This document shows positions 1 to 9,675 of a stretch of DNA of 64,000 nt, piece after piece. The stretch is from Psychrobacter sp. NG25. GTDB taxonomy: Bacteria > Pseudomonadota > Gammaproteobacteria > Pseudomonadales > Moraxellaceae. A program made the translations under genes and the position numbers. Each line of letters begins with the position of its first letter. The first letter of the stretch is position 1. The notes under the pieces were generated by a model. It did not search any database. It was not told where the DNA came from and saw only the letters and a list, made by a program, of their open reading frames with translations. The stretch is taken from contig NZ_JADGMV010000003.1 in NCBI RefSeq assembly GCF_015234355.1, positions 62,001 through 126,000 on the forward strand. The letters are read 5' to 3'.

Positions 1-629
1 AGGGAATACCAACCAAATCCTGATGAAAGCGCTAAGCCTTTCGTCCACGATACATCACTGAACATCAGCGCAAATATTAAGCCACCTGCCAATACTGCTA
101 TCGTAAAGACAACACTCATCTCAACGCCACGTTTATTGAGTAGCACTTCTTTGAGCGTAATGCCTGAACCCTTTAAACCAATACCAACCAGTAAAATCAA
201 AATCATCAGTAGGACGGTCATGGTATTTTCAGGCGGCATATAGTTCGCTGGTAGGAAATAGCCAATTACCATGCCAATCAATACGCAAACGACTTGGGCG
301 AGGCTACCGCGAATACTGACGCGGTGTTCTTTAGATTTTACGCTGGGTTTTTTGGCCTGCCATGGTCGCATGTTATCGAAAATCATCAAAGCTAGTAGAC
401 CAGAGCCGATAGTGAGGATTGAAAGCACAGCAACATAAAGCGCAATCTCACCTACTTGACCGCCTAAGCCCTCGACTTGCGATAGCTCAATGCCAATTAG
501 GGCTAAAATGACAAACACTAAATAAGATAAGCCCTTATCCGCAAGCCTTGTCATAGTGGGATTAGAAGGAATGGCAAAGCCAATAAACATTGGCATTAAG
601 ACCAAAATAAGGGTAACTATGCTTTGCAT
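1..629 (-). CDS. lysO: Lysine exporter LysO (YbjE family), 3' part outside window
   Basis: This is the first 209 codons of an inner-membrane protein read leftward from the ATG at 627-629; the gene runs off the left edge. The translation is strongly hydrophobic, with about five membrane segments visible. It matches the E. coli LysO (YbjE) pattern, including the conserved stretch SGFGWYS just before the cut and a GIxLK/LNKRG stretch in the middle. In E. coli this family exports L-lysine. It is divergent from the lipid gene at 835, so the 200-bp gap probably holds both promoters. A second basic amino acid exporter candidate (ArgO type) lies at 14842-15444. Confidence 0.85.
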   Translation of the reverse strand, partial: MQSIVTLILVLMPMFIGFAIPSNPTMTRLADKGLSYLVFVILALIGIELSQVEGLGGQVGEIALYVAVLSILTIGSGLLALMIFDNMRPWQAKKPSVKSKEHRVSIRGSLAQVVCVLIGMVIGYFLPANYMPPENTMTVLLMILILLVGIGLKGSGITLKEVLLNKRGVEMSVVFTIAVLAGGLIFALMFSDVSWTKGLALSSGFGWYS

Positions 630-786: not shown

Positions 787-834
787 TAAACTTTTGTTGC
801 TAAATTAAGACACCGAAGATACGTGGTTGGCATT

Positions 835-3486
835 ATGTCGCTATATCAGCTCAAGCCTAAATTTCAAGATCAGCTGCGACCAGTCAGTAATTCGTTGGTC
901 GCGCACAATTTTACTGCCAATCAAGTCACTGTGTCTGCGGTACTATTAAGTGTGGGCACGGCTTATGTTATTGCGAAGCCTGCAACCGAGCAGCAAGCGT
1001 TATGGCTTTTATTGCCTTCATCATTGTTCGTACGGATGGCACTGAACGCCATTGACGGCATGATGGCACGCGAGCATGGTCAAGCTACTAAACTGGGTGC
1101 AGTACTAAATGAGGCGGGCGATATTTTTGCTGATACGGCACTCATTGCCAGTTTGGTTCCGCATATAGCTAAACATGATTTACGAATTAATTCTGAACGA
1201 CAAATTCGCACGAGTAAGTCGCCAACCACTCAGCGGCATATCAGCAGTATTGTAGCGTTGAGTATTAGTAGTGAGCTACTTGGTATCGCTAGCAATACGA
1301 TGCTAGGGGTAAGAGCAAACCAAGGGCCTTTAGGGAAAAGCGACCGTGCTCTAGTGCTAGGTATACTTGGTACCGTTATGGGTAGCAAGATACCGTTATC
1401 ACTTTCTCCTAAAAGAATCGTGCAGTTGTCCCTGTTGGTAGAGACGCTATTACTAAAAACGTGCCTGAACCGTTTACGCTATATGGCAAATCTATATCTG
1501 ATGCATCAGCCACCAGCACTTCGAGCAGTAACGTGTGAGTCAATAAACAACTCGCTATCTCTCAATACTGTTTTACCAAATAATCTTACTGATAACGCGC
1601 GCCCATTGGAGTTCAAAGAAATGCCAACCACTGTTAATAGTCAAAAATTAAAAGAACAGGCTAGTGTTAGTTTTGAGCAGTCATCACCAAAAATCATTAA
1701 TGGTGAAAGTTGCTACAACGCTTATGATGGCACGGCTATTTATTATCGCTATTGGTTAACGATGCCTTTAACAGATATGAAAAAATCAGCCATTGAAAAA
1801 CCGACTCAGCCATTACGTCAAGTGATCTTATTACATCGTGGGCATGAGCATTCGGGTCGATTGGCAGAGTTAGGAGAGCAGTTTGCAAAAGCTGGTTATC
1901 AAGTCTTTGCTTGGGATGCACGCGGTAATGGGCGCTCAGGGGGTATCAAAGATCATGCTGAGAGTGTTACCGAGCTTGAACGAGATTTAGATGGCTTTGT
2001 GCAATTGGTTATTGGGCAGACAGGCATTGCTATTGAAGATACCTTAATCGTCGCCAGTAGTATCGGCGCGGTATTGGCAGCAGCATGGGTGCATGACTAT
2101 GCGCCCAATATTCGCGGGATGATACTCGGTACGCCTGCGCTAAGCATTCGCTTGTATATGCCTTTTGCGATACCGTCATTAAAGGTAGCACGGACACTGG
2201 GTCTGATGTCACGTGTTAGTAGCTATGTCAAAGCGCAAGTATTGACGCATGATAAAGACGCGCAGCAAGCCTATAATGCCGATCCATTGATATCGAATAG
2301 TATTTCAACTGACTTACTCATCGATACCCATGCGACGGGTCAGCGCTTGCTCGACGATGCTGGGGCTATCACTGTACCGACGTTTGTCTTATGTGCAGGT
2401 AAGGACTACGTGGTGGATAAGCAGGCTGAACGCGCGTTTTATGAAGCGATCAATACACCTACGAAACGCTGGCAATTGTATCCAGACAGTTATCATGCAA
2501 TCTTTCATGAGACCAATAAAGCCGATGTCTTTGCCGACTGTATTGATTTCGCTGAGCACGTATTTAGCACACAAGTCCAAGCACCTGATTTGAGTACCGC
2601 TCATTTGAATAGCGCCAGTAAAGACAAGGTAGACCGCTTAGCGATTAAGCCATTCAATCCAAGCTTCGCGATTACCCGTTTTGCGATGCAGAAGTTCGGT
2701 CATGTTAGCGATGCGATTGCGACAGGGCTTGAACATGGGTTTGATTCTGGTCACTCGCTTGATCACGTCTATTACAATCAGCCCAGCGGTCAGAATAAAT
2801 TTGGGCAAGCAATCGATAAATTTTATTTAAGTAATATTGGCTGGCAAGGCATTCGTATACGCCGCGCACATATCTTAGAGCTGGCACGCTTAGCATTCGC
2901 AGATATTGAAGATAAAAATCAGAGTAACGCCAAGCCATACCAACCAAAATTATTAGATATCGCTAGTGGCCATGGTTTTTATGCCTTTGATCTGCTAACA
3001 GAGTTTACAGACTTGCATGCGGAGCTACGAGATTATGAGATGCATAATATTCAAGCATTGCAAGCAAAGGCGGAGCAGTTAGCGATTTCTGATCGAGTCA
3101 TTGCGTGTCAAAAAGATGCTTTTGACGTAGCAAGTTATCCTGATTCTGATAACACAAAATTTGATGTGGCCATCAGCTCAGGCGTGTTTGAGCTGTTTTC
3201 TGATAATGTGTTACCAGCGGCAGCATTGGCAGGTATTTATGACAGTTTAAAAGCGGGCGGTTATTTAATTTATACCAATCAGCCGTGGCATCCTGAGCAA
3301 GAGTTCATCAGTAAAACCTTAAACAACCACCGTGGCAGCAGTTGGGTGATGCGTTGTCGATCACAAGCCGAGATGGATCAATTGGTTGAGCGTGCAGGCT
3401 TTAAAAAGGTTGCCATGCGTATCGACCGCTTTGGTATCTTTACCGTGTCATTGGCGATTAAAACGGCACCAATCGATGATAAGTAA
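835..3486 (+). CDS. YnbA-YnbC fusion: CDP-alcohol phosphatidyltransferase, alpha/beta hydrolase and methyltransferase
   Basis: This 883-residue protein joins three domains. Residues 1 to about 220 are a CDP-alcohol phosphatidyltransferase-like membrane domain (NAIDGMMAR, then G-x3-N-x3-D). The first and third aspartates of the usual motif are Asn, as I recall also for E. coli YnbA. After a polar linker, about 295-595 is an alpha/beta hydrolase of the lysophospholipase type, with nucleophile Ser409 in ASSIG and a late Asp/His pair. About 610-880 is a class I SAM-dependent methyltransferase with LDIASGHG near 707-714. In E. coli the same parts are the separate proteins YnbA and YnbC. The ATG at 835 is preferred over the GTG at 823 because MSLYQLKP matches the YnbA N-terminus. 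The substrate is unknown. The gene is followed after three bases by the patatin-like gene. Confidence 0.85.
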   Translation: MSLYQLKPKFQDQLRPVSNSLVAHNFTANQVTVSAVLLSVGTAYVIAKPATEQQALWLLLPSSLFVRMALNAIDGMMAREHGQATKLGAVLNEAGDIFADTALIASLVPHIAKHDLRINSERQIRTSKSPTTQRHISSIVALSISSELLGIASNTMLGVRANQGPLGKSDRALVLGILGTVMGSKIPLSLSPKRIVQLSLLVETLLLKTCLNRLRYMANLYLMHQPPALRAVTCESINNSLSLNTVLPNNLTDNARPLEFKEMPTTVNSQKLKEQASVSFEQSSPKIINGESCYNAYDGTAIYYRYWLTMPLTDMKKSAIEKPTQPLRQVILLHRGHEHSGRLAELGEQFAKAGYQVFAWDARGNGRSGGIKDHAESVTELERDLDGFVQLVIGQTGIAIEDTLIVASSIGAVLAAAWVHDYAPNIRGMILGTPALSIRLYMPFAIPSLKVARTLGLMSRVSSYVKAQVLTHDKDAQQAYNADPLISNSISTDLLIDTHATGQRLLDDAGAITVPTFVLCAGKDYVVDKQAERAFYEAINTPTKRWQLYPDSYHAIFHETNKADVFADCIDFAEHVFSTQVQAPDLSTAHLNSASKDKVDRLAIKPFNPSFAITRFAMQKFGHVSDAIATGLEHGFDSGHSLDHVYYNQPSGQNKFGQAIDKFYLSNIGWQGIRIRRAHILELARLAFADIEDKNQSNAKPYQPKLLDIASGHGFYAFDLLTEFTDLHAELRDYEMHNIQALQAKAEQLAISDRVIACQKDAFDVASYPDSDNTKFDVAISSGVFELFSDNVLPAAALAGIYDSLKAGGYLIYTNQPWHPEQEFISKTLNNHRGSSWVMRCRSQAEMDQLVERAGFKKVAMRIDRFGIFTVSLAIKTAPIDDK

Positions 3487-3489
3487 TAA

Positions 3490-4686
3490 ATGAATAATAA
3501 ACCCATCAAGCCCTATGAGCGTGTCCAACTTTTTTCCGGAGGAGGCTCGCGTTTTGGCTATTATTTAGGTAGCTATGCGGCGTTGGTCGAGCATGACCTA
3601 AAGCCGGATATTATCGTTGGTACTTGCGGTGGGAGCTTATCAGCTTATCTGGTCAACCTAGCTCCTGACCCCAAGGATTTGCAAGCGCTGATGTACAGCC
3701 GCGAGCTATACTCAGTCATCAAAGCGATTCGCCATGTTAGCCCTGATGAAGCTAACAGGCGTGCAAAAATGCGTTATATGACTCATGCACTCAAACGTTG
3801 GCATCTGTCACAGCGTACATCTAATGGGCAAAAGCAACGACAAGCAGACAGCTATGCGCGACTCTTAGATGAGCTGCAGCAGTTAGCGATGTTTCGTATT
3901 GATAATGAAGTGCAGTGGCTTGATGAGTTGTCTAGCTTTGCATCTATCGAAAATGGCAGTAGCCAGCCTAATGCTAGTACCCCTGAAATAGCCATCATTG
4001 CCAGCCGACTGTATCAAGCGCCTATCGATGGTTCATCTGATGAAAAGCTAATGCTGCAAGAATTGTTATTTGCGCCGTCGCGCTTAGCAAATTTGCCAAG
4101 TTCTGTATCAGATCTGGCTGACGAGCAACTGATATCACCTGCGCATACATTTGCAAATGGTCGTATACATCAGGCGGTAGAGATACGGACTCAATGGGAT
4201 TTTGCGTCAGTGGTTCGTGCTTCTATGGCCGACATGTATTATCTACCGCCTATACATATTACAGAGCTTGGTTGGTGCTTAGGTGGGGTCATCAATCTCA
4301 CACCGATTGAGCTAGCCTGTCAGTTGGGTGATAGCGTATTTGCAGAGACTAAGGCAGGTTACGACTCGTGGCTGGCTGTTCCCGCGATTCAGCGGGTTTT
4401 TGGTTTTGACCCTAATGAGCGATTGGCAGCAGTACACGGTTATCAACCGATGGAAGTAACGTCGCACACTAATACCGCTAGCAACAACCATCAGCTACAT
4501 TGGTTACCGTTTGCCGATAATGAACAGCAGTTAGTAGGTCAGAATGTGCAGAAGCGTTTTAATATAAAGCAAATGACTATTGAGCTGATACACGCTGACT
4601 ATGACGGTTTTGTGCAGCAAATGCAGGCGCAATGGAAGTACGGTTACCAGCGTACAGCTGACTATATACAGCAGCATAATTTGTGA
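3490..4686 (+). CDS. Patatin-like phospholipase family protein with altered catalytic residues
   Basis: This 398-residue protein carries the patatin oxyanion-loop motif (GGGSRFG, residues 17-23). Next comes a nucleophile elbow that reads G-T-C-G-G at 44-48, so Cys46 stands where patatins carry Ser. The usual DGG/DGA catalytic Asp motif reads Leu264-Gly-Gly before VINLTPIELA. Family members are lipid acyl hydrolases that use a Ser-Asp dyad. This copy either uses Cys or is a non-catalytic relative. It starts three bases after the YnbA-YnbC fusion gene and overlaps the next gene by four bases, so the three are translationally linked. There is no signal peptide or clear membrane segment. Confidence 0.8.
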   Translation: MNNKPIKPYERVQLFSGGGSRFGYYLGSYAALVEHDLKPDIIVGTCGGSLSAYLVNLAPDPKDLQALMYSRELYSVIKAIRHVSPDEANRRAKMRYMTHALKRWHLSQRTSNGQKQRQADSYARLLDELQQLAMFRIDNEVQWLDELSSFASIENGSSQPNASTPEIAIIASRLYQAPIDGSSDEKLMLQELLFAPSRLANLPSSVSDLADEQLISPAHTFANGRIHQAVEIRTQWDFASVVRASMADMYYLPPIHITELGWCLGGVINLTPIELACQLGDSVFAETKAGYDSWLAVPAIQRVFGFDPNERLAAVHGYQPMEVTSHTNTASNNHQLHWLPFADNEQQLVGQNVQKRFNIKQMTIELIHADYDGFVQQMQAQWKYGYQRTADYIQQHNL

Positions 4687-5498
4687 AAACCCTCGTAGAA
4701 GATACCGCCGAAAATCATACGCCGCATATTATTATCGTCGGTGGCACGAGTGGTCTTGGTTTGGCACTGGCTGTGTATCATCTACAGCTTGGTTGGCAGG
4801 TGAGCGTTGTTGGTAGTAACGTTGCAAAGATAGAACATATCAACGGTCAGTATCCGACTATCAAGACTTATGCTTGTGATTTGACTGATAGTGTCCAAAC
4901 ACAGAGTCTATTAGATAAATTGTCAGCTACAAGCTTTCACAGACTTATCTATAGTGCAGGTAGTTACACCAATGAGCGTGTTCATCATCTAAATCAAGCA
5001 GAGAGCGACCAAATGCTAGCGATTAACTTGCAGGCATTTGAGCAGGTTTTTAGGTGGGCAAGCGTGAAGTCAAAGCAGCAACATCAGTCATTGGACTTTG
5101 CTAAAGACTGTAGATCAAGCCTTATCTGTATCGCCTCTATCGCTGGCACGATGGATTATCCTTACGCCAGTTTTTATGCAAAAAGCAAGCGAGCAATGAT
5201 AGCGACTGCTAGCGCTTATCGAGCGGCACTTGCGCCTTATAATATCCAAGTGAATTGTATTGCATCAGGCTATATCGATACCCAAGCATTGCGTGATTTG
5301 AATAATGGTGATGCCAGTCATAAACCATTTATCATGAGTTTGCAGACTGCTGTGGTAGAGGTTATGCAGGCGATTGATAATGATGTTGAGTTAGCCGTGT
5401 TTCCACGATCTATGCGCTATATTACTCGGGTGTTAAATCACTTACCCAAGCCATTACTCAACTTAATATTGCGCAGTAAATTGGATAAGCCTTCTTAA
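4683..5498 (+). CDS. Short-chain dehydrogenase/reductase
   Basis: This 271-residue classical SDR has a glycine-rich nucleotide site (GGTSGLG, residues about 15-21), a catalytic Ser in the CIASIAG stretch and a Tyr-x3-Lys pair in FYAKSK. The family performs NAD(P)H-linked reduction or oxidation of carbonyl or hydroxyl groups; the substrate cannot be read from sequence. It starts at a GTG that overlaps the patatin stop (GTGA), so it belongs to the lipid module and may reduce a lipid intermediate. Only about 30 bases separate its end from the convergent CdsA-like gene. Confidence 0.85.
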   Translation: MKTLVEDTAENHTPHIIIVGGTSGLGLALAVYHLQLGWQVSVVGSNVAKIEHINGQYPTIKTYACDLTDSVQTQSLLDKLSATSFHRLIYSAGSYTNERVHHLNQAESDQMLAINLQAFEQVFRWASVKSKQQHQSLDFAKDCRSSLICIASIAGTMDYPYASFYAKSKRAMIATASAYRAALAPYNIQVNCIASGYIDTQALRDLNNGDASHKPFIMSLQTAVVEVMQAIDNDVELAVFPRSMRYITRVLNHLPKPLLNLILRSKLDKPS

Positions 5499-5529
5499 AC
5501 GAATACTGCCTTAATCAAAAATGGGCAGC

Positions 5530-6405
5530 TCAGCCAAATAGCCAATAGAGCAGAGTGAATACTGGCACACCAATCAGCAAGCTATCTATCCGATCTAATA
5601 CGCCGCCATGTCCAGCGAGCATCGTTCCGGTATCTTTTACCCCGTGTTGGCGTTTAAATGCTGACTCCAATAAATCTCCTGCGATACCACTTACTGCCAA
5701 ACCATAGGCGGCTAATAAACAAAGCCACCCGCTAAAAGGCGTGAGCCATAGTCCCAGTAACGACGCCAATACAGCGGCACACAAACTACCAAAGACCGCG
5801 CCTTCAATGCTTTTATTTGGGCTAACGGTAGGAGCGAGACCTCGCTTAAACAGTTTGCGTCCCAGTAATCGTCCGCATAAGTATTGGGCAATATCGTTGA
5901 ACTGACTGGCGAAGAAGACAAAAAGTAAGACGCCATATTGCTCACGTTGCCACGTCAATTGCTGCAATACAATAAGGCTTAAAATTAGTGAAATAAAGGC
6001 ACTGCTAAACACGATATCCAGTAGATTGAGACGCGTATAAGACTGTGTCAGTGCTGAGTTTTTTTCGTCAGATATTATTTGTGGTTGTAGCCCGCGTGCT
6101 TGGAGTTTGCTAATCAGCCCCGCTTTGTCGTATATGCACCATACGCGCTTAATCTCATAGCAGCCGCGTAGACCAATTAACATAAAAAACGTAACGAGAA
6201 CCCATTGATAGGGATAATCATCCTGACTATTATTTATTTTGGCGATGACATAGCACACGCACAGAGCCACTAGCATGAGCCACCAAGAGCGTGCAATCAG
6301 ATAAATCTTAGGCAAGCGAGTACGTAGACGAGGGATAGCCAGTATGCCCCAAACCAAACTTACTACCATCATAAGTCCGATAACAAACAGCGTATCAGTA
6401 GACAT
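5530..6405 (-). CDS. CdsA/YnbB-like phosphatidate cytidylyltransferase
   Basis: This 291-residue multi-membrane-span protein ends with a full CDP-diglyceride synthase signature: S-A-F-K-R, then K-D, then H-G-G-V-L-D-R-I-D (residues about 250-275). Such enzymes make CDP-diacylglycerol from CTP and phosphatidate. Because it sits tail to tail with a YnbA-YnbC fusion, it is more likely the YnbB paralogue than the housekeeping CdsA, which normally lies next to uppS, dxr and rseP. The E. coli YnbB paralogue has, to my recollection, been connected with MPIase glycolipid synthesis. It lies downstream of nadB on the same strand, but an inverted repeat separates them. Confidence 0.85.
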   Translation of the reverse strand: MSTDTLFVIGLMMVVSLVWGILAIPRLRTRLPKIYLIARSWWLMLVALCVCYVIAKINNSQDDYPYQWVLVTFFMLIGLRGCYEIKRVWCIYDKAGLISKLQARGLQPQIISDEKNSALTQSYTRLNLLDIVFSSAFISLILSLIVLQQLTWQREQYGVLLFVFFASQFNDIAQYLCGRLLGRKLFKRGLAPTVSPNKSIEGAVFGSLCAAVLASLLGLWLTPFSGWLCLLAAYGLAVSGIAGDLLESAFKRQHGVKDTGTMLAGHGGVLDRIDSLLIGVPVFTLLYWLFG

Positions 6406-6427: not shown

Positions 6428-6484
6428 AAAAGCAGTCATCAACCACTTTAGTAATGACTAGAATGCCAGTTGACTACTGCTTTT
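6428..6484 (-). terminator. Likely nadB intrinsic terminator overlapping the nadB stop codon
   Basis: Arms at 6428-6443 and 6469-6484 pair over 16 bases with two mismatches. Read on the minus strand, the stem is followed by a run of T. The 5' arm includes the first base of the nadB stop codon. It should end nadAB transcription before the CdsA-like gene. Confidence 0.6.
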
Positions 6485-8393
6485 AGGTGGCAGTAGTCAC
6501 TTTTATTTTTCTAGCTCCTGAGTGAACAATTATAGGCTGAATAAGCCAGTCAATACTACCTTCTCTTGGGTCTATTAATGGATTAATCACACTTGTTCGA
6601 GTTGTGGCGGCTAGATTTGGATAGTCTTTTCTATAATGCCCACCGCGACTTTCAAGACGTTGAGAAGCTGATTGAATAATTAATGTCGCTAATTGTAACT
6701 GTCTTGCCAACTGTAAATATGTAAGGTCATCAATGCTGACCGTGCTATTTTTGCGATTGATATTGCTATTACTATCACTGCCATTAAATGAACTTAACTC
6801 AGGTTGTTTCAACCATTGCTGCCATTGTTGTATCTGTTCAAGCGCTTCCTCTAACTCTCTGGCACTACGTGTGATACCCATATTGGTAGTCATTAGCGCT
6901 TTTAGTTTTACGATGACTTCTGTCATATCGGCATCATTATGGCAGTGCTTAATAGCCTCGTTATGCTCATATAACGTTGATGTCGACGATGTAAAATAGG
7001 GAAGATTAATCGATTGGGTGTTCTTCAGTACGGGTGTTTTCCAAATGTCATCGGCACTTGCATTCAAATTAAGATGATATGCCGTAGTATGTAGATTGAT
7101 ATCTAGCTTTGCATCTAGTGCTTCCATTTCTGCCAAGTAACGAGGCAAGTCGGTAGCGATATTACGTCCTACTACCACGCACTCTAATAGCGAGTTGCTC
7201 GCCAAACGGTTGGCACCATGCAAGCCTGTATGAGCAACTTCGCCTGCTGCATAGAGACCTGCCACATCGGTCATACCGTTTACCGATGTGACAACGCCAC
7301 CGCAACTATAATGTGCGGTAGGGGCGACTGGTATCGGATCCGTCGTGATATCAATGCCAAGCGTTATCAACGTCTGATAAATTTGTGGGAAATGCTCCTG
7401 TAAAAATGGCGCTGGTAGATGACTGACATCAAGATGTACATAGCCAAGTCCATTTACACTAATCTGCTCAGCGATTGCTCGTGCGACGATATCTCTTGGA
7501 GCCAATTCAGCACGCTCATCAACGTCTAGCATAAATCGTCGACCTGTCTGCGGACAGTATAGGCATCCACCTTCTCCGCGTAGCGCTTCAGAGATTAAAA
7601 AACTGCTGTCGCCTAATGCGAGACCAGTCGGATGGAATTGCACAAACTCCAAGTTTGCCAGACGGCAGCCCGCTTGCCACGCCATCATCACGCCATCACC
7701 GACACAGACATTCGGTGCACTGGCACGTTGAAACAGCTGCCCCAAACCGCCACTGGCCAGTACGACTGCGCGACTATAAATGGTCAGCTGACAATGGTTA
7801 TTGTGATCAAAAATGCGTGCACCTTTGCAGTGGCTGTTAGTAATAGGATCCTTCAAAAGGCTTAATGCTTCATGATACGGTAATATCGTGATATTACTTG
7901 CAGCATGGGCCCTTATGGTTAGGGCTTCCATAACGTGCCGACCTGTTGCATCATCCGCATGGGCCACTCGTCTGCAGCCATGACCACCTTCCTTGGTTAG
8001 ATGTAAGTTGTTAATTTCTAAGTCAGTACTATTTAAATCAGTTAAGGTTTTTTGCGTGACATCTTGTTGTGGATTCTGAGTAAAAGGGACACCTTGTTCG
8101 CACAGCCACTGTATCGCTTGCTGTCCTTCACTTAGTATCTCAGTCGTATTAGTAGCATCGCATAACCCTGCGCCTGCGATCAAGGTATCAGCGACATGGT
8201 CAGTCACGGAGTCATTTTGGTCCAAACTTGCAGCGATACCACCTTGTGCGTAATGGCTTGAGCAAACCTCCAAAGCGGCTTTACTCAGTACCATGATACT
8301 CAGCGATTTTGGTAGTGATAATGCAGTACTTAGACCGGCCAATCCTGCACCGATAATAAGTACGTCTGTTTGCCTGACATGATCCGCGCTCAT
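6483..8393 (-). CDS. nadB: L-aspartate oxidase
   Basis: This 636-residue flavoprotein oxidises L-aspartate to iminoaspartate in de novo NAD synthesis. It has the N-terminal FAD dinucleotide motif (IIGAGLAGL), the family stretches SSHYAQGGIAA, HxxTGRHVM and EFVQFHPTGL, and the AAGEVAHTGLHGANRLASNSLLE segment. The ATG at 8393 begins one base after the nadA stop and fits the family N-terminus; an upstream in-frame start would lie inside nadA. It is roughly 90 residues longer than typical NadB of about 540. Most of the excess is Ser/Asn-rich material in the C-terminal helical region, which looks like an insertion rather than a new domain. Confidence 0.95.
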   Translation of the reverse strand: MSADHVRQTDVLIIGAGLAGLSTALSLPKSLSIMVLSKAALEVCSSHYAQGGIAASLDQNDSVTDHVADTLIAGAGLCDATNTTEILSEGQQAIQWLCEQGVPFTQNPQQDVTQKTLTDLNSTDLEINNLHLTKEGGHGCRRVAHADDATGRHVMEALTIRAHAASNITILPYHEALSLLKDPITNSHCKGARIFDHNNHCQLTIYSRAVVLASGGLGQLFQRASAPNVCVGDGVMMAWQAGCRLANLEFVQFHPTGLALGDSSFLISEALRGEGGCLYCPQTGRRFMLDVDERAELAPRDIVARAIAEQISVNGLGYVHLDVSHLPAPFLQEHFPQIYQTLITLGIDITTDPIPVAPTAHYSCGGVVTSVNGMTDVAGLYAAGEVAHTGLHGANRLASNSLLECVVVGRNIATDLPRYLAEMEALDAKLDINLHTTAYHLNLNASADDIWKTPVLKNTQSINLPYFTSSTSTLYEHNEAIKHCHNDADMTEVIVKLKALMTTNMGITRSARELEEALEQIQQWQQWLKQPELSSFNGSDSNSNINRKNSTVSIDDLTYLQLARQLQLATLIIQSASQRLESRGGHYRKDYPNLAATTRTSVINPLIDPREGSIDWLIQPIIVHSGARKIKVTTAT

Positions 8394-8394
8394 A

Positions 8395-9534
8395 CTAGGC
8401 AGCTCCAACGTTGGCGAACAGTGTACGGTCTTTGACAATATCACCACTAGCGGCCACACGTTGTTTCTGTGATTCGGCAAAATCAAGCATGCGCTGTAAA
8501 GGTTTTTTGGCTGCTACTGCTAGCTCATGTGTCATTAGAACCTCACCGCTTTGATTGGTCAAGCACTGCTCGATACCTTTTAATCCGTTCATTGCCATCC
8601 AAGGGCAAAACGCACAGCTTTTGCAATTGGCACTTTCACCAGCAGTAGGCGCCGCCAAAAATCGCTTAGTGGGCGAGCGCTTTTGCATTTCGTGTAATAT
8701 GCCCAAATCGGTAGCGACGATAAAGGTATCTGCATCCATCTCATAGGTTGACTGTAATAGTTTGCTGGTAGAGCCGACCACATCTGCCAACTCAACAACG
8801 CTATCAGGCGACTCAGGATGTACCAAGACTTTGGCGTTTGGATACTCCTCTTTTAATTGCAGGAGTTCGGTTGCCTTAAACTCATTATGTACGAGGCAAG
8901 ACCCTTGCCAAAGCAACATATCTGCACCAGTCTCACGCGCGATGTATTTACCCAAATGACGGTCAGGTCCCCAAATGATAGCTTCACCTTGAGCATGTAA
9001 GTGACGGACGATGTCGATACCAACAGACGAGGTCACTACCCAGTCTGCACGTGCTTTGACCGCGGCGCTGGTATTGGCATACACCACCACAATACGCTCA
9101 GGATGCGCATCACAAAAGGCTGAAAACTCATCAGCAGGGCAGCCCAAATCAAGCGAACACTCGGCTTCCAAATCTGGCATCAGTACGGTCTTTTCCATAC
9201 TTAAAATTTTTGCCGACTCACCCATAAAGCGCACACCTGCGACTACCAATGTCTGTGCACTGTGCGCTTGACCAAAGCGTGCCATCTCAAGCGAATCACC
9301 GACACAGCCACCAGTCGCCAATGCCAAATCCTGAATAAAAGGATCGACATAATAATGTGCGACCAGTACGGCGTTATTGTCTTTTAATAATTGCTTAATA
9401 TTTTCTTCAACCACGATACGCTCTGAACGCGGCAGATCTGCTGGCATCTTAGCTTTGGCATACTCGATATTCATTTTAGTCGCAATGCGGTTGTCATTGC
9501 TCATGATGGGTGCGTCATAGGGATAAGTTTTCAT
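8395..9534 (-). CDS. nadA: Quinolinate synthase NadA
   Basis: This 379-residue iron-sulfur enzyme condenses iminoaspartate with dihydroxyacetone phosphate to quinolinate. Recognisable motifs are [16 protein letters not shown], the FMGESAKIL segment, [14 protein letters not shown] and the C-terminal [10 protein letters not shown] cysteines that help hold the 4Fe-4S cluster. The ATG at 9534 has an AAGG about nine bases upstream; a TTG at 9597 would add 21 poorly conserved residues and overlap a repeat. It is the first gene of nadA-nadB. Upstream lie a dispersed repeat and an NrtR-type palindrome, which suggests NAD-responsive repression. Confidence 0.95.
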
Positions 9535-9584
9535 AAGTGCAAACCTTGTGTGCGATAACGACACGTTATATGCCGCTAAAAATG

Positions 9585-9675
9585 ATACCAACCTCAAAAA
9601 TATGATTAGCCGTATTAAACTCGTTCAGTCTACTAGGCGTAGTGCTGACGATCGTTCTGCTTACTATTGTTATTT
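9585..9675 (-). repeat. Dispersed intergenic repeat, copy 1 (subfamily A)
   Basis: Read on the minus strand it has the core ACTACGCCTAGTAGACT followed by a GAGTTTAATACGGCTAAT stretch shared with copies at 17996-18091 and 41617-41710. It lies between the NrtR palindrome and nadA, so it would be part of the nadA leader. Confidence 0.7.

Follow-up and report, generated by a model that had tools for sequence, protein, structure and literature searches.

The DNA analysed here, referred to as the window, is a stretch of 64,000 nucleotides from the 3.39 Mb genome of Psychrobacter sp. NG25 (contig NZ_JADGMV010000003.1, positions 62,001 to 126,000). Close to its start lies a group of four genes, which an earlier note, made from the sequence alone, had interpreted as an expanded ynb-like lipid module. 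The forward strand codes for a fusion protein, a patatin-fold protein and a short-chain dehydrogenase/reductase (SDR), in this order, and these are followed by a convergent gene with a CTP_transf_1 domain on the reverse strand. The composition given in the note, a three-domain YnbA/YnbC fusion with a patatin-like protein, an SDR and a convergent CdsA/YnbB-like gene, was confirmed by the open reading frames (ORFs), by Pfam and by BLASTP. Homologues of YnbA, YnbB and YnbC occur together with a patatin and an SDR, and the designation as an expanded ynb-like module is also supported. While the ynb kind of module is known and its job unsolved, the YnbA-YnbC fusion, which is kept across Psychrobacter, and the expansion by patatin and SDR are new and, as judged by sequence comparison, real and conserved. 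The features of the module are the following (positions in the window):

823..3486, forward strand: ORF1, ynbA-ynbC fusion, 887 amino acids from the GTG at 823; the conserved start is the ATG at 835 (835..3486)
835..1506, forward strand: YnbA-like CDP-alcohol transferase domain, residues 1-224, helical in the model
1045..1122, forward strand: altered CDP-alcohol motif N71-x2-D74-G ... G88-x3-N92-E93-x2-D96, with Asn replacing D1 and D3
1507..1683, forward strand: linker, residues 225-283, variable and with very low model confidence
1696..2568, forward strand: YnbC-like alpha/beta hydrolase domain, monoglyceride-lipase-like, residues 288-578, Ser-Asp-His present
2617..3462, forward strand: Methyltransf_20 S-adenosylmethionine (SAM) methyltransferase domain, residues 595-876
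3490..4686, forward strand: ORF2, patatin-fold protein, 398 amino acids, Cys at the nucleophile position, catalytic Asp gone
3625..3627, forward strand: codon of Cys46, nucleophile position of the patatin-fold protein
4279..4281, forward strand: codon of Leu264, catalytic Asp position of the patatin-fold protein
4683..5498, forward strand: ORF3, SDR, 271 amino acids, GTG start, catalytic residues intact
5530..6405, reverse strand: ORF4, CdsA/YnbB-like phosphatidate cytidylyltransferase paralogue, 291 amino acids, convergent

ORF1 passes the Pfam cut-off of CDP-OH_P_transf (22 bits) with a weak score of 24.3 bits, which is backed by a BLASTP match of residues 5-219 to E. coli YnbA (39%, E 4e-35). 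The remainder of the protein scores 191.5 bits for Hydrolase_4 and 289.9 bits for Methyltransf_20 and matches E. coli YnbC (39%, E 2e-149). As had been noted before, ynbA, ynbB and ynbC are separate in E. coli; yet E. coli YnbC itself already combines the hydrolase and the methyltransferase, so that the new join is that of YnbA to YnbC. The fused frame is intact in 43 of 46 Psychrobacter loci and broken in three (L159, L179, L181); in genome G035 it is split within the YnbA part, and the four Moraxella loci carry ynbA and ynbC as separate genes. Within the genus the distribution is patchy, with 37 of 60 genomes matching both the YnbA and the YnbC part of the fusion, either in one piece or in several. 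On these counts retention of the fusion is more than chance. Because YnbA and YnbC are fused in one protein, they would share one path, and we take the fusion as strong evidence for this.

The model predicted for the entire fusion has moderate confidence (mean pLDDT 67.8, pTM 0.58), and the relative placement of its domains was therefore not used. The 50 Foldseek matches listed fall on the hydrolase and the methyltransferase and none on the membrane part; among them, monoglyceride lipases are the closest fold of the hydrolase domain. In a tree of YnbC from 27 loci and the window, Psychrobacter and Moraxella stand apart from genus g51, E. coli and others (support 100/100). Several long branches meet in this tree, and thus the position of the YnbC from Oxalobacteraceae is unsure.

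The YnbA domain departs from its enzyme class at the active site. In class I CDP-alcohol phosphotransferases the four Asp of the signature D1xxD2G1xxAR...G2xxxD3xxxD4 have been termed absolutely conserved (PMC4634129). In YnbA, D2 and D4 are kept while D1 and D3 are replaced by Asn. The resulting form, N-x2-DG ... G-x3-N-E-x2-D, was found throughout two sets of YnbA sequences (17 of 17 and 30 of 30), that of E. coli included, the window YnbA being counted in both sets and the 30 being the best-scoring of 63 matching genomes from a phylum draw. Glu93, which adjoins N92, is invariant in these sets. All four Asp are present in the three other CDP-alcohol enzymes that the window genome encodes. 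The third of these canonical enzymes (L190:1423-2909) adjoins an ORF which by eye resembles a membrane fatty acid hydroxylase and is near ABC transporter ORFs, also identified by eye.

As the Pfam cut-off is passed by the window protein and also by E. coli YnbA (39.2 bits) while D1 and D3 are Asn, we regard YnbA as a homologous subclass and a non-canonical member of the family. The closest NCBIfam models are far from reaching their cut-offs (archaetidylinositol-phosphate synthase, 48.3 of 180 bits; phosphatidylinositol phosphate (PIP) synthase, 43.8 of 170 bits). Among PDB sequences, the YnbA profile matches PIP synthase 6h53 best (E 5e-11; 12 chains match and five alignments were read). Alignment to the enzyme from Mycobacterium tuberculosis pairs N71 with D68, D74 with D71, N92 with D89, D96 with D93, R171 with R155 and R213 with R195. 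In that PIP synthase, magnesium is bound by D68, D71 and D89, and D93 presumably acts as the base (PMC6506517). For R155 and R195 a role in binding the phosphate of the acceptor, inositol phosphate, has been proposed, and their loss cripples activity (PMC4634129). Residues 1-224 are helical in the moderate-confidence model, six transmembrane helices being a feature of the class. The head-group transfer that had been assigned to YnbA is partly supported, being favoured by the kept general base and acceptor Arg and weakened by the Asn at two of the four signature Asp. Taken together, the kept base, the Arg pair and Glu93 point to a transferase that would use a phosphorylated acceptor and be re-tuned, not dead.

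A second altered active site is that of the patatin-fold protein. Its assignment is clear from Pfam (Patatin, 57.2 bits at a cut-off of 27.7) and from the fold, which matches PlpD with a Z score of 18.6 over 233 residues (rmsd 3.5). We compared 53 sequences, those of the window and of 52 loci, with six of 58 loci (L146, L148, L169, L179, L181 and L182) left out as unmatched or broken in frame. The nucleophile position is Cys in all 53 and Ser in PlpD and VipD. At the position of the PlpD Asp, Leu occurs in 42, Met in four, Ile in four, Phe in two and Ser in one, and Asp in none. The Ser of PlpD and VipD and the Asp of PlpD are the catalytic residues of patatins, and the Ser-Asp dyad is thus absent. 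Classical acyl-chain hydrolysis is therefore unlikely, and a classical patatin phospholipase was ruled out as a candidate; the acyl-chain remodelling that the earlier note had ascribed to the patatin is not supported in that form. D248 is invariant in the 53 sequences, and one might guess that it is the partner of Cys46. A literature search on a cysteine nucleophile in patatins found no paper.

Two observations on patatin genes were made elsewhere. In G004 (L078:10719-14268), the patatin gene is followed by an ORF for an IS605 OrfB-type transposase and by a partial second patatin copy. In Undibacterium and relatives (L172, L173, L177, L178, L185), a Cys-patatin occurs without ynb genes in the DNA retrieved around it, and in four of these five loci it adjoins an ORF which by eye resembles a homocysteine-type sulfhydrylase.

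The active sites of the other parts are intact (the homologue sets hold four genomes twice, L063-L066 and L129, L130, L133, L134). ORF3 (adh_short, 96.6 bits) has the features of a classical SDR, with Asn-Ser-Tyr-Lys present in 56 of 56 homologues and the glycine motif in 55 of 56 (one gap). The YnbC part contains both domains in the expected order, and its hydrolase triad is conserved (Ser 62/63 with one gap, Asp 63/63, His 63/63), as is the Asp of the SAM motif (63/63). ORF4 scores 144.1 bits for CTP_transf_1 (cut-off 24), and nine residues of the C-terminal signature of CDP-diacylglycerol synthases (CDS) are invariant in 64 of 64 homologues, which places it in the CdsA/YnbB family; its BLAST match to YnbB is confined to the C-terminal part (residues 167-283, 46%). 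With these residues in place, the CTP activation, methylation and reduction previously suggested for the locus are plausible. Literature searches found no paper on Methyltransf_20 and none that joins three of the four domain names of the module.

The earlier note had proposed to look for the five parts together in other genomes and had named a lack of conserved co-occurrence as part of what would refute it; the parts were found together, so that this half of the refutation did not come true. A genome scan with the patatin as query yielded 57 loci, 50 from Moraxellaceae and seven from Betaproteobacteria; since the patatin was the query, its presence in these loci is by construction. All five parts occur in 50 of the 57, namely in 49 of the 50 from Moraxellaceae and in a metagenome-assembled genome from Oxalobacteraceae (L174), which in addition carries ynbD and whose YnbC is distant. 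In another betaproteobacterial locus (L175) a small contig holds patatin and SDR, and the five loci from Undibacterium/Oxalobacteraceae have the patatin alone (two begin near a contig end). Among 199 genomes of the family, PF12147 (YnbC) occurs in 56, of which 38 belong to the same genus, four to Moraxella (g46) and 14 to genus g51. The patatin profile has 41 strong matches in these 199 genomes, all in YnbC-positive ones (weak matches in G169 and G192, E about 4e-7 over 57 positions, were left out), and YnbD is found in 47, of which 43 are YnbC-positive. Fisher tests of co-occurrence gave 2.6e-30 and 2.7e-27, for related genomes and with phylogeny ignored.

In a draw of 369 genomes from the class, PF12147 was found in 16, ten of the matches being strong including that of the window genome. 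Beside the nine other strong ones we found YnbB in eight, YnbA in seven, YnbD in five and an acyltransferase in four (one contig ends near YnbC), and patatin or SDR in none of the nine. The patatin profile matched twice in this draw, once in the window genome and once as a weak partial match. Among the 30 best-scoring YnbA loci of the phylum draw, YnbC adjoins YnbA in 23, and the other seven show YnbB and an acyltransferase.

Within Psychrobacter, the five-part set is found in three chromosomal settings: the nadB site, a second site that is common to two genomes (L079:790-2342 and L109:13186-14723, with shared flanks) and that of L115. L081 and L110 share yet another site, where fusion and patatin occur beside gamma-glutamyltranspeptidase and DNA polymerase III alpha (seen in L081). 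On plasmid pNP7-2 from Moraxella osloensis (L186:8983-16926), the module is located among transposases and its fused form is interrupted by one in-frame stop; a transposase ORF is found beside the PAP2 gene of this module.

The occupied site of the window is bordered as follows:

1..629, reverse strand: lysO, left border, cut by the window start
6483..9597, reverse strand: nadB (6483-8486) and nadA (8395-9597), right border

In all 14 members of the genus that are free of the module, nadB adjoins lysO. The module is thus a single unit, either acquired or lost cleanly. For the copy in the window an origin from a plasmid was considered and rejected, as it sits between lysO and nadB in a contig of 421,669 bases, although plasmid pNP7-2 has a related copy. 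Within the module, 3 bp separate the fusion stop from the patatin ATG, and patatin stop and SDR start overlap in GTGA; translational coupling across these junctions is plausible from this spacing. Scans of the locus for promoters and terminators remained at chance level, and no tRNA was found in the window.

A YnbD homologue of 541 amino acids with an intact HCx5R motif is encoded on another contig (G000:C12:24870-26429) and is unlinked to the module. The window locus therefore differs from ynbABCD, in which YnbD lies beside the other genes; a YnbD gene is close to the module in L109, L115 and L080. In four genomes YnbD occurs without YnbC. It has two internal stops in G024, is split in G053, shows a partial PAP2-type match in G132, and in G215 has a single late stop that leaves 479 amino acids including HCx5R. 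This may hint at decay of YnbD after loss of YnbC; it is taken as a hint because G215 and G132 are not clear cases of decay and because YnbD is also split in two YnbC-positive Moraxella genomes (G130, G171).

The ynb genes are common in E. coli, being present in 4236 of 5426 complete genomes (at least 80% of a 4,000-base query). In earlier work ynbA is listed in a table of a cyclic di-GMP mapping screen (PMC13031359), is the one gene with lowered expression when cells were exposed to plutonium for 15 days (PMC10134817) and is an acid-stress gene activated by BglJ-RcsB (PMC12871917), while ynbB is dispensable for phosphoglyceride-linked enterobacterial common antigen (PMC8609368). Among the literature matches listed, in which subscription journals are mostly uncovered, functional work was found for ynbB and none for the products of ynbA, ynbC and ynbD.

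We propose, with a probability of about 0.5, that the locus is the Psychrobacter form of a widespread ynb module and codes for a membrane-associated pathway for a minor, modified (methylated) glycerophospholipid. The sequence itself gives the parts, their order, linkage and conservation and the intact or altered residues, while the chemical steps, their succession, the kind of acceptor and the product are inferred. The convergent CdsA/YnbB paralogue would make CDP-diacylglycerol next to its user. The YnbA domain, with its Asn-containing metal site, would transfer the phosphatidyl moiety onto a small acceptor that carries a phosphate, possibly of the polyol-phosphate type. With such an acceptor, a lipid phosphatase of the YnbD type would be expected, and the unlinked YnbD homologue (PAP2 and dual-specificity phosphatase) could take off the surplus phosphate. 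The YnbC domains, which a flexible linker would keep tied to the transferase, might cleave an ester and add a methyl group to the product at the cytoplasmic face; a hydrolase fold nearest to monoglyceride lipases would fit ester trimming of a glycerolipid. The SDR may reduce a carbonyl. The patatin-fold protein would be a binder of lipid or acyl chains, or an acyl carrier on Cys46, rather than a classical phospholipase. It possibly substitutes for the lysophospholipid acyltransferase of related modules, because this enzyme is present in eight of eight g51 loci and in the four class loci mentioned above, while a search of the 57 patatin loci with one reference protein, which a distant homologue could escape, found none.

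Several observations speak against this proposal. Asn is found at two metal-binding Asp positions in every YnbA examined, and in Candida Cho1 a change of the equivalent D1 or D3 to Ala results in poor growth similar to that of the knockout (PMC8727905), so that YnbA may not catalyse the head-group step. A second CTP_transf_1 gene, higher-scoring and presumably CdsA, is present elsewhere in the same genome. Deletion of ynbB in E. coli caused no growth defect and left the level of the glycolipid MPIase unchanged (PMC6362211). In L081, L110 and L131 (Psychrobacter submarinus) we found fusion and patatin and no SDR or CDS gene nearby, and in genome G161 YnbC occurs in the absence of the patatin. 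Of the 38 YnbC-positive genomes of the genus, 13 lack YnbD; together with the split genes in Moraxella this means that the phosphatase step would be non-obligatory or be performed by another enzyme.

As an alternative, YnbA and the patatin-fold protein might be non-catalytic, lipid-binding pseudoenzymes which place CDP-diacylglycerol or lipid for the hydrolase, the methyltransferase and the SDR, so that an existing lipid is modified and no new head-group link is made. The changed catalytic positions, found in both proteins in every sequence examined while the tested SDR, hydrolase and CDS residues are intact, favour such a role. However, YnbA retains D2, the general base D4, both acceptor Arg and the invariant Glu beside N92, and as Asn is able to bind metal, the site looks re-tuned rather than dead; we consider a purely binding role rather unlikely. 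The opposite view for the patatin-fold protein, an active cysteine acyltransferase or lipase that remodels acyl chains via an acyl-Cys thioester with D248 or another partner, agrees with the clear fold, with the invariance of Cys46 and D248, and with the finding that acyltransferases occur in modules lacking the patatin and were not found where it is present. Yet the dyad Asp is lost, a cysteine-nucleophile patatin did not turn up in the literature search, and the E. coli cluster manages with neither patatin nor acyltransferase, which makes this activity improbable.

It is also improbable, in our view, that the module is devoted to a pyrophosphate-linked glycolipid, MPIase for example, for which the CdsA/YnbB paralogue would make GlcNAc-PP-diacylglycerol and the other proteins process it. 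Over-production of YnbB in E. coli raises MPIase, and YnbB is no substitute for CdsA in phospholipid synthesis (PMC6362211; PMC7018664), but MPIase persists without ynbB, as cited above. In addition, the similarity of the window protein to YnbB is restricted to the C-terminal part, and YnbB is paired with YnbA and YnbC, in several cases also with an acyltransferase, for which no need is known in the MPIase path. Finally, genes with unrelated jobs could be neighbours by chance or by regional inheritance, given that the compared genomes are related and that no ynb gene was found in the DNA fetched around the five patatin loci of Undibacterium/Oxalobacteraceae. The recurrence of the five-part set in Oxalobacteraceae with a distant YnbC, in three chromosomal settings of Psychrobacter and, with a broken fused gene, on the Moraxella osloensis plasmid makes this very improbable, and a chance neighbourhood was rejected on the co-occurrence across loci and settings.

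We thus retain the pathway for a minor, methylated glycerophospholipid as our reading of the locus. A bolder form of it, which we put forward tentatively and regard as rather unlikely, is that YnbA, including that of E. coli, forms a subclass of its own among the CDP-alcohol transferases, so far unrecognised and marked by an Asn/Asn/Glu metal site. Its partners in Moraxella, in Psychrobacter and in some Betaproteobacteria might be a patatin-fold acyltransferase that depends on Cys, an SDR and a hydrolase-methyltransferase, the last tethered in Psychrobacter, and together they would make an undescribed membrane lipid. Through this locus the unsolved role of the E. coli ynb genes can be approached. 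The two altered active sites are the most telling new facts, as they provide exact residues for testing, and one of them is common to E. coli YnbA. If YnbA is active, the rule of four conserved Asp in the CDP-alcohol enzyme family would need revision.

Compared with known systems, the patatin-fold protein shares the fold and the glycine-rich loop with patatin-like phospholipases (PlpD, CapE, CapV, VipD) and differs from them in having Cys instead of the Ser of PlpD and VipD, and Leu, Met, Ile, Phe or Ser instead of the Asp of PlpD. YnbA resembles the class I PIP synthase (PDB 6h53) in D2, D4 and the equivalents of Arg155 and Arg195, but has Asn at D1 and D3 and stays below the NCBIfam cut-off. 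Ynb modules of the acyltransferase type, found in g51, in other Gammaproteobacteria and on a Pseudanabaena plasmid, have YnbA, YnbB and YnbC, or the methyltransferase part of the latter, in common with the window locus. They differ by their lysophospholipid acyltransferase (PF01553 in the two checked), and no homologue of patatin or SDR was found in them. On the Pseudanabaena plasmid, ABRG53d (L187:5001-8156), YnbA, YnbB, the acyltransferase and a methyltransferase of 314 amino acids, too short for a hydrolase domain, lie beside nif genes. The ynbABCD genes of E. coli are separate, and their cluster has neither patatin nor SDR, whereas in Psychrobacter YnbA and YnbC form one protein, ynbD is unlinked, the CDS gene is convergent, and genes for a patatin-fold protein and an SDR have been added. 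Both systems have homologous YnbA, YnbB and YnbC with intact YnbC and CDS residues, and both carry the same Asn-Asn motif in YnbA.

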